A DNA stretch of 64,000 nt from Actinomycetota bacterium (GTDB taxonomy: Bacteria > Actinomycetota > Nitriliruptoria > Nitriliruptorales > JAHWKO01): positions 1 to 64,000 of the forward strand of contig JAHWKW010000010.1 of the NCBI GenBank assembly GCA_019347675.1, given 5' to 3'. Below the pieces are notes generated by a model. It was given only the letters and a program-made list of their open reading frames with translations, was not told the origin of the DNA and did no database searches. Shown one piece after another: positions 17,263-21,593 of this stretch. Within the stretch, counting starts at the first letter, position 1. Each line of letters opens with the position of its first letter. The position numbers were made by a program, and so were the translations under genes.

Positions 17263-17589
17263 ATGAACGCCGGTTCGCGAGAGACCGAAGCCCAACACGC
17301 CGCGCCGAATCTGCGCCTGGAGGCCACCGTCCATCCCGGGGACAACCAGCTTGCGCTCGAGGACGTGGCCGATTTCGACCTCGACCGCATCCCGGATCCT
17401 GAGGGCGGCGTCCGGGTACTCATTACCGCCGACGAGGCCGTCCGGTTGGTCGCGCGTGGCTACGAGGTCCACCTCGTGAGAGCGTTGACGGTGGCCCCGT
17501 TGGATCCCGCGCTCGTCATGGATGACGACAGCGTGAGGGCGTGGCTGGAGGATCAGGTCGAGGGCATCGAGCGGCGAGAGGGGTCTTGA
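17263..17589 (+). CDS. Propeptide-like protein encoded beside an M14 peptidase
   Basis: A 108-residue soluble protein with no signal peptide. The centre (VRVLITADEAVRLVARGYEV) has the beta-helix-beta pattern of M14 peptidase N-terminal prodomains. A similar stretch (VEAVLHTAADAQVLAAAGFA) occurs in cis in the secreted M14 peptidase at 22125-24284. Here the segment is a separate gene that overlaps the M14 start by one base (TGATG), so the two should be made in equal amounts. I infer a trans-acting propeptide, folding aid or inhibitor. A strong GGAGG lies before the ATG. No family is recognised with certainty. Confidence 0.6.
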   Translation: MNAGSRETEAQHAAPNLRLEATVHPGDNQLALEDVADFDLDRIPDPEGGVRVLITADEAVRLVARGYEVHLVRALTVAPLDPALVMDDDSVRAWLEDQVEGIERREGS

Positions 17590-19070
17590 TGTACCGGACG
17601 ATCGCCCAACTGGACTTCCTCACCGGGCTCTTGGCTGATTGGTTTCCCCAGTTCTTCACCAGGCTCCAGCTCCCGGAGCCGTCGGTCGAGGGGCGCCCCG
17701 TCCACGCCCTGCGGATGCGCGCCGGCGATGGGGAGGATCGCCGCGGCGTCCTCCTGGTCGGAGGTACCCATGCCCGAGAACTGATGAATCCCGATGCGAT
17801 CGTCGAGCTCGCGGTCGATCTCCTGGTGAGCTACGCCCTCGGCACCGACATCGTCTACGGCGGACGGACCTGGACCGCGAACGACGTCCAGATCATCCTC
17901 GAAACGCTAGACCTCTGGTTGTTGCCCTGCTCCAACCCCGACGGCCGTCACCACGTCATGACCGTTGACGATCTCTGGCGCAAGAACCGGCGGGACAATC
18001 CGGGCACGCCTTGCGACGGTGTCGATCTAAACCGAAACCTCGACATGCTTTGGGGAGTCACTCAGGGTCAGACCTCCTGCTCGCCCTGTAGCGACGTCTA
18101 CGTGGGACCTGCGGCCTTCAGCGAGCCCGAGACGCGCAACGTGAAGCACCTACTCGATACGCGTCGCATCGACTGCTTCGCCGACGTGCACTCATTCTCC
18201 GAGCTCATCCTGTACCCGTGGGGGCATGCGGTAACGCAGACCGTCGATTCGACCAAGCGGTTCACTGGCCTGCCCAGCAGTACGTGCGCGCCGATCGGCC
18301 AGGTCGGGTACCAGGAGTACATGACCCCGCGGGACCTCCTGAGGTTCCAGACGGTCGGACAGCGGATCGTCGACGCCATCGCCGCGGTGCGGGGGCGGGT
18401 CTACACCAACCAGCCGAGCGTCGCTCTTTACCCCACGACCGGAACGCACAGCGATTACGCCTACAGCCGCCACATCGCCGACCCCAGCCTCCGCAAGACC
18501 TACTCCTACACGTTCGAGACCGGGCCTTGGGCGAGGGACGTGCGGGGCTCGTTGGACGTGCGGGAATCGTTCCATCCGGCCGACCCCACGCTGATCAAAA
18601 GGGACGCCAAGTCGGGAATGCTGGCTCTGATGCAGCAATGCATCTGTGCCATCGAGCTGATCGGAACGCGGTTTCTCGGGGGTGAGGCGGAGGTCTCCGC
18701 GCTGAGGCATGTGCGGGACGACCTCCTCGCAACGACCGCCGCGGGACGCCGGTGGATCGCCCTGTTCGAACGCGTGCAGCTTCCGCTGGTTGGCGTTGTG
18801 CTCGGCGATGAACGACTCTCCGAGGAAGCAGCTGTCCTCATCGAGCGCGCCGGCCGGCTGGTTCGAGAAGAGAAGGCCACTGTCACCGATGAGGACGTCG
18901 AGCGCGGCCTGTCCCTGATCCGGATCCTGGCCGAGCTGTCGGAGTCCGAGGACGTCAGAGCAGACCTCGAAGCAATCGGCGCCGAAATCTCGGGCCTCGC
19001 GGGGCTCACCACGGGCGACGTGATGGAGCGGCTCATGCGGTCGGGGCCGGCCAACCGACCCCAGAAGTGA
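17589..19070 (+). CDS. M14 family zinc carboxypeptidase without signal peptide
   Basis: A 493-residue metallopeptidase. Zinc ligands are His61 and Glu64 (GGTHARE) and His201 (VHSFSELILYPWG). Substrate binding is by Arg149 in DLNRN and the NPDG motif (116-119), and the general base is Glu310 in TFETGPW. All catalytic residues are therefore present. The peptidase domain ends near residue 350 and is followed by ~130 residues of predicted helices with no recognised family. There is no signal peptide or lipobox, unlike the M14 gene 4 kb away, so it probably works in the cytoplasm or is exported by another route. It is coupled to the propeptide-like gene. Codon and base composition are less GC-rich than in housekeeping genes nearby. 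Confidence 0.85.
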   Translation: MYRTIAQLDFLTGLLADWFPQFFTRLQLPEPSVEGRPVHALRMRAGDGEDRRGVLLVGGTHARELMNPDAIVELAVDLLVSYALGTDIVYGGRTWTANDVQIILETLDLWLLPCSNPDGRHHVMTVDDLWRKNRRDNPGTPCDGVDLNRNLDMLWGVTQGQTSCSPCSDVYVGPAAFSEPETRNVKHLLDTRRIDCFADVHSFSELILYPWGHAVTQTVDSTKRFTGLPSSTCAPIGQVGYQEYMTPRDLLRFQTVGQRIVDAIAAVRGRVYTNQPSVALYPTTGTHSDYAYSRHIADPSLRKTYSYTFETGPWARDVRGSLDVRESFHPADPTLIKRDAKSGMLALMQQCICAIELIGTRFLGGEAEVSALRHVRDDLLATTAAGRRWIALFERVQLPLVGVVLGDERLSEEAAVLIERAGRLVREEKATVTDEDVERGLSLIRILAELSESEDVRADLEAIGAEISGLAGLTTGDVMERLMRSGPANRPQK

Positions 19071-19689
19071 CCCGGCGTGCCCGCAGAAGGTAACGGAAGC
19101 GCTTGCGGCGAGCAGCTCAGGGCCGACTGGCGGCACGCTCGGACGAAGGCGGTCGCATCGAGGCACAGCTGCACGGCGCGGGGAAGCGTCGCGTCGGCGC
19201 GCGGAGCTGGTGGAGTCCGGCGGCGTCGGAGCCCAACGCGGGCGCCCGGGTGGGCCACGCGTCTGTCAGCGACTCGGGCGCACCCCGTAGACCTTGGCCG
19301 GGTGGGTCGCCAGCGTCGCAATCTGCGCGGCCTCTGCCGACGACTCGCCCCGCTCGGTCCGTCCCGGGGTGAGCGCTCTACCCGACGCCAACTCAAGAAT
19401 CGCGGCGATGCGCGCAAAGGAATACAGAGGTCGAGCGACGTTCGTCGCAGCATCATGCGACGAGACGCCGCCCACCGCTGGAGACGCTTCCCCAGACCGG
19501 CGTCGGCTGAGGGCGCAACACCCCCCAGGCCGCGTGGCTAGCATCATTCTCCGTGATTGCCAGGATCCTTACCATTTTCGCAACCACCGCAGGGACCAGC
19601 CGAGGGCTATCCGGGTTGGCTGGATGTCGCTGCGCGGGCGGGTCAGCCAGCGTCAGCCGCCTGGGTCATCTCGCGTAGGAGATCGTGCA
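19071..19689. other. 619-bp gap with no convincing gene
   Basis: Open frames exist on both strands but show no family pattern. The minus-strand frame 19266-19547 (93 codons) is the best candidate small gene, but it lacks a good ribosome-binding site. Base composition falls towards the right end. AGGAG at 19677-19681 serves the next gene. Confidence 0.4.
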
Positions 19690-21318: not shown

Positions 21319-21335
21319 CCCAGAGGAGTGGAGAG

Positions 21336-21593
21336 GTGGACGAACGCTTTCTGAACGTGGATCCGGAGGGCAGGCCGCTGCAAGACGTCTATGGTGGCCT
21401 CTCTGCGACGGCTCGCTCGCCCGAGCGCGAGCCGCCCCCGGGAATGCCGGCGGCGGCTTCCAGTGGGGAGGTGCACAACGGAGGGCCGAGCCCGGTCGTC
21501 GGTGAGGCGCGCGAGCAGGGGATGGAGCAGCCGGCGCGGTCGATCGATCAACCTGCGTACGACGGAGGGGCTGCACCGACCGATTTACTCTAG
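21336..21593 (+). CDS. Small acidic Pro/Gly-rich protein
   Basis: An 85-residue, low-complexity, probably disordered protein that starts 17 nt after the metallopeptidase-like gene, with GAGGAG before its GTG. No family is recognised. By position it belongs to the same transcript. It could be a real partner or a chance frame; the ribosome-binding site favours a gene. Confidence 0.45.
   Translation: MDERFLNVDPEGRPLQDVYGGLSATARSPEREPPPGMPAAASSGEVHNGGPSPVVGEAREQGMEQPARSIDQPAYDGGAAPTDLL

Follow-up and report, generated by a model that had tools for sequence, protein, structure and literature searches.

A four-gene block flanked by gene relics

The window (the whole 64,000-nucleotide stretch of actinobacterial DNA that we analyzed) carries, between positions 17263 and 21593, four intact open reading frames (ORFs), all on the forward strand and each with start signals. 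They encode a prodomain-like protein (P108), an M14 metallocarboxypeptidase (M14), a 542-residue protein (P542), and a small acidic protein (P85) (Table 1). The TGA stop codon of P108 (17587-17589) shares its last base with the M14 ATG at 17589; as listed, the M14 frame extends further 5′ than this ATG. A gap of approximately 620 bases without a recognized gene follows M14. P542 then begins at a GTG at 19690, preceded by AGGAG, and P85 starts 18 bases past the P542 end.

Table 1. Features of the block, its flanks, and comparison loci (window positions unless a locus is named)
Feature	Position	Strand	Basis or context
Left repeat: frameshifted EamA pseudogene fragments and scraps of secreted M14 3′ end	16531..17090	.	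direct-repeat comparison
P108, standalone M14-prodomain-like protein, 108 aa, no signal peptide	17263..17589	+	orthologs upstream of M14; AF2 model
TGATG stop-start overlap of P108 and M14 (translational coupling)	17587..17591	+	sequence; G046, G040, and G037 likewise overlap by one base
M14 metallocarboxypeptidase, 493 aa, no signal peptide, catalytic residues intact	17589..19070	+	Pfam PF00246 9e-53, PDB match, residues, tree
P542, NAL1_N-like N terminus, HExGH-type domain reading QEQGH, beta-sandwich CTD; 542 aa, no signal peptide	19690..21318	+	
QEQGH codons at the HExGH site of P542	20428..20442	+	sequence, alignment
P542 CTD, common to leaderless hydrolase cassettes	21055..21315	+	36 public-genome loci; window HMM 6e-40; AF2
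P85, small acidic protein, NGGPSP and DGGAAP motifs	21336..21593	+	ORF scan, shuffles
Right repeat: EamA 5′ relic adjoining intact secreted M14	21903..22103	.	direct-repeat comparison
Cassette: leaderless hydrolase with CTD, standalone CTD, small D-G-x-x-P peptide	L011-L047; e.g., L028:9191-10753, L032:8498-10955		
BNR/Asp-box neighbor, example	L084 2657-4057	reverse complement	downstream of M14

A sequence-only reading of this DNA had described a lower-GC four-gene block between direct repeats in a decayed region. The placement is correct. Positions 16850-17090 match pieces of 21956-22103, 22301-22375, and 22629-22656 at 85 to 100% identity, and these repeats derive from a decayed EamA transporter gene (16531-16931 on the left, 21903-22036 on the right) and from the 3′ end of a secreted M14 gene (22125-24449). 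An intact EamA paralog on contig C26 (L083:1933-2928) is 89 to 97% identical in DNA to both decayed copies. Because the flanks carry these relics, the block sits inside a broken duplication. The statement on base composition stands only in part once GC is measured per gene: low GC is mainly a property of P542 (GC 59.7%), with GC3 at 0.75 for P542 and P85, whereas P108 and M14 (GC3 0.82 to 0.83) are just mildly below the long ORFs of the window (mean GC3 0.86). Judged by these values, P542 and P85 look like more recent arrivals than P108 and M14.

As the same reading had stated, the block does not resemble a known anti-phage defense system; PADLOC-DB gave no match at E 0.01. Among other features of the window, a bacterial proteasome activator (BPA) gene lies 2 kb upstream of the block (14595-15137); BPA was not seen by the P108-M14 genes of relatives in the stretches read, so this neighborhood is probably a coincidence. 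An 819-codon open frame beside the secreted M14 (25215-27671, reverse strand) has no Pfam match and may not be the coding frame. A tRNA-Sec gene (anticodon TCA; 28853-28946, reverse strand) is present, and the actinobacterium therefore probably makes selenoproteins.

Leaderless M14 carboxypeptidases and their upstream neighbors

The M14 protein was expected to keep all catalytic residues and to lack a signal peptide, and it does both. It matches carboxypeptidase A4 in the PDB (2e-31) and retains eight of the eight residues checked (H69, E72, R127, N144, R145, H196, Y248, and E270 in CPA numbering; positions 61, 64, 131, 148, 149, 201, 281, and 310 in its own), which include the HxxE...H zinc ligands as well as R127, N144-R145, Y248, and E270 expected of a PF00246 enzyme. 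The cis prodomain and signal peptide of an M14A procarboxypeptidase are absent: the enzyme begins at its catalytic domain, and P108 is a separate ORF. Approximately 130 C-terminal residues weakly resemble the CFI-box-CTERM domain (7e-4, below its cut-off).

This arrangement is conserved. Each of the 30 split loci examined has a gene for a protein of approximately 90 to 120 residues directly upstream of M14; these loci are 25 of Streptomycetaceae type (the family of genome G082) and those of the window, G046, G040, G037, and Caballeronia. The M14 orthologs of G046 and G040 are 66 to 67% identical and their P108 proteins 49 to 52% identical, with the same one-base overlap. In G037, where the M14 is 52 to 54% identical, a 106-residue positional counterpart of P108 overlaps it in the same way. 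In the Streptomyces-like family, an M14 relative occurs in 25 of 249 genomes, and an ORF of 88 to 119 residues precedes it in all 25 loci. Most of these ORFs (22 of 25) are homologous to two main seeds (E of 9e-18 or better); at the other three loci, which are near identical, the upstream ORF matches its own seed only, and the M14 is matched over part only.

At four Paraburkholderia loci, a related domain of the P108 type instead forms the N terminus of a leaderless M14. The Streptomyces-type standalone protein and this fused domain are detectably similar both by BLASTP (5e-9, 33% over 73 residues) and by profile comparison (hhalign 95.6%, E 1.3e-8; unrelated control, 0.06%). In a maximum-likelihood tree, 13 split and three fused signal-less M14s form one clade (100/99 bootstrap), apart from secreted M14s, within which the window enzyme groups with those of G046, G040, and G037 (99/97). 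Two cysteines of this clade, which we take to correspond to the CPA C138-C161 disulfide, are both conserved among the enzymes of the window subclade, in one enzyme from Streptomyces, and in Paraburkholderia; the others lack them.

M14 prodomains have a beta-alpha-beta-beta-alpha-beta layout followed by a C-terminal connecting helix. An AF2 model of P108 built from five sequences has the same order of elements (beta1-alpha1-beta2-beta3-alpha2-beta4 and a long C-terminal helix) at a moderate mean pLDDT of 69.5. Foldseek searches with this model returned generic ferredoxin-like matches, none below E 0.001, and no specific PDB match. The hhalign values for P108 of the window subfamily are all weak: 3.6% with the standalone family of Streptomyces, 2.2% with the Paraburkholderia fused domain, and 19.9% with secreted M14 propeptides (control, 1.1%); all three matches fall on one strand-helix-strand stretch of 25 to 32 residues. 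Across comparisons, the propeptide match ranged from 19.9 to 49.7% over 29 columns. No plasmid relatives of P108 were found by tblastn. Position, coupling, clade, and fold agree on P108 as a prodomain, of which its sequence alone would be no proof. The original suggestion that P108 resembles an M14 prodomain encoded separately is supported by the 30 split loci and by the natural fusions in relatives.

The window pair resembles procarboxypeptidases A and B (MEROPS M14A, Propep_M14) in its catalytic domain and residues and in having a predicted prodomain fold with its connecting helix directly before the enzyme; it differs from them in that the prodomain is a separate polypeptide, neither protein has a signal peptide, and there is no cleavable link. 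Secreted bacterial M14s, such as the one beside the right repeat, share the M14 domain and have a propeptide weakly similar to P108, but they carry a signal peptide and a cis propeptide and fall outside the signal-less clade. Standalone propeptide-like inhibitors that act in trans include Plasmodium SUB1-ProM, a precedent from another family that is encoded beside subtilase genes (PMC6993865), and the I29 proteins CTLA-2/crammer (PMC4089206). Like P108, these are propeptide-like proteins encoded apart from a peptidase; unlike P108, they belong with other peptidase families (subtilase and cathepsin). The enzymes that they target keep their own propeptides, whereas the window M14 has no cis propeptide.

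Two further observations concern M14 neighborhoods. In 12 of the 25 Streptomyces-type loci (L084-L101), a convergent gene for a leaderless BNR/Asp-box protein of approximately 460 aa adjoins P108-M14, and in one a subtilase gene lies upstream; both are enzyme types that bear the CTD described below in other loci, a thematic link. On Sinorhizobium meliloti psymA, an ORF that by eye appears to be a standalone prodomain (L072:3435-3737) precedes a leaderless M14 (3773-4912), which by eye also has an N-terminal prodomain-like part of its own.

P542, P85, and the CTD cassette

The QEQGH reported in P542 where HExxH is expected is indeed there, and the zinc-ligand histidine is lost; P542 therefore lacks the intact HExxH of a metallopeptidase. 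The sole homolog found of this middle domain, on a Granulicella plasmid, reads HEMGHRW at the place where P542 reads QEQGHRW. The domain was absent from all 396 other actinobacteria searched and from 19 CTD genomes, the latter in a search without a positive control. Judging from one motif and one distant homolog, the hydrolase domain is probably inactive and no longer has a zinc site. At the N terminus, approximately 50 residues resemble NAL1 (NARROW LEAF 1) proteins (NAL1_N match of 1.1e-4, below the Pfam cut-off); unlike these, P542 has no trypsin domain.

AF2 models of full-length P542 are unreliable in the N-terminal and middle parts (pLDDT mostly below 50), and the CTD alone is usable; it is all beta with a pLDDT of approximately 95. 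This domain has no Pfam name. Its fold matches are generic (pyocin fiber, tailspike, YPM, snail lectins), with no PDB match below 0.001, and the BFVD matches below 0.001 obtained for P542 cover mainly the low-confidence part of the model.

The CTD occurs in 36 loci from five phyla (Chloroflexota, Actinomycetota, Pseudomonadota, Planctomycetota, and Bacteroidota) and in Haloferax. Its carriers include subtilases, LegP-like astacins, a Gln_deamidase_2 protein (protein glutaminase), and BNR/Vps10-type proteins, and among the proteins read, none has an obvious leader by eye. Fused and standalone CTDs occur together in 27 of 37 loci (the 36 plus the Haloferax plasmid locus). In the 60 kb beside CTD genes, 22 small ORFs carry at least two motifs of the form [DN][AGI]G-x-[APSG]P, against 0 in 872 strand-kb farther off in the same loci; the pattern was written after viewing the CTD loci, which partly shaped this contrast but does not affect the far control. 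A leaderless hydrolase with a CTD is usually accompanied by a standalone CTD and a small acidic D-G-x-x-P peptide, and we call this combination the CTD cassette. The peptides of S8-type cassettes often start with M[RK]I[IT]IE-D. No description of these motif strings or of a CTD cassette was found in the open-licence literature.

P85 is the only window ORF of up to 260 aa with two D-G-x-x-P-type motifs, and at least two such motifs arise in shuffled P85 sequences at a frequency of 7e-5. Its frame is not an isolated one, in that a P85-like peptide travels with CTD genes in other genomes. The label of small acidic protein is apt but incomplete: P85 is also Pro/Gly/Ala-rich and looks disordered. 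The window thus has two elements of the cassette, a CTD on a leaderless protein and an adjacent acidic D-G-x-x-P-type peptide. An HMM search of the window genome found a single CTD and no standalone CTD gene, so the cassette is incomplete there. Compared with LegP-like astacins and leaderless subtilases, P542/P85 share the CTD and the D-G-x-x-P peptide; the standalone CTD is found only with the former, their peptidase domains are unrelated to the P542 middle domain, and P542 is without the HExxH histidine. We infer that the CTD is a binding or assembly domain, and with the D-G-x-x-P peptide it probably serves attachment or assembly.

Two modules and a possible trans prodomain

The sequence-only reading had joined all four genes into one regulated proteolysis module. 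The genes do share a strand, lie in one insertion between repeats, and are all leaderless, and the BNR and subtilase neighbors of Streptomyces P108-M14 genes are of types that carry CTDs elsewhere. However, G046, G040, G037, and G082 have P108 and M14 without any CTD gene, and tblastn found neither P108 nor a window-type M14 in the CTD loci. Each module occurs without the other, which means that the four genes of the block are merely two pairs placed side by side. The four families do not co-occur as a block; what does recur is P108 with M14 and the CTD of P542 with a P85-like peptide. Since the two pairs are found apart in every other genome examined, differ in base composition, and are separated here by the intergenic gap, the single-module view is largely refuted, and we regard it as very improbable. 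We favor, with moderate confidence, two independent modules in one insertion: a split procarboxypeptidase and a horizontally acquired, incomplete CTD cassette.

The relics on both flanks, the QEQGH of P542, and the absence of a standalone CTD would also suit a block in decay that no longer serves any function and in which P542 is a degenerating copy of a metallopeptidase that was active. Four intact ORFs with start signals, and an M14 with complete catalytic residues that is 66 to 67% identical to its orthologs, make this unlikely. Somewhat less unlikely, though still doubtful, is the view that P108 has nothing to do with prodomains and shares the M14 operon by chance, as an unrelated partner that might be a regulator or an adaptor for substrates. 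The weak similarity of the window P108 sequence to true M14 propeptides and the generic matches of its fold fit such a partner. Against this view, the predicted elements of P108 follow one another as in a prodomain, and a related domain (the Streptomyces version) is fused in Paraburkholderia at the N terminus, the prodomain position.

If P108 is a prodomain, as we prefer, it would be made just ahead of M14 from the same message by translational coupling. It would then most likely bind the fresh enzyme in trans and cover its active site, perhaps also aiding folding. M14 would become active only once P108 has dissociated or been degraded, and activation would involve no single covalent cut. Given that no covalent link joins the two proteins, the level of activity would depend on the P108:M14 ratio, on dissociation, or on P108 degradation. 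The second module would comprise a signal-less hydrolase with a CTD, accompanied by P85, acquired horizontally and with its zinc site probably lost. In the open-licence literature, we found no trans-prodomain zymogen control for M14, and papers on standalone propeptides did not cover M14.

We tentatively propose a trans prodomain as the means of control in the leaderless M14 clade, whose members come from Actinomycetota and Burkholderiales. A separate proposal concerns the undescribed cassette of bacteria and archaea: its varied leaderless hydrolases, the beta-sandwich CTD with its standalone copy, and the D-G-x-x-P peptide may jointly make up a system for non-Sec export, display, or assembly. 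The usual zymogen is kept inactive by a covalently attached prodomain that is removed once; a conserved M14 clade with a separate, cotranslated prodomain, if true, could instead be controlled reversibly, and the idea can be tested directly on the split and fused versions that occur in nature. For bacteria and archaea alike, the CTD cassette offers a way into the question of how signal-less BNR proteins, glutaminases, and peptidases might be brought together or delivered.
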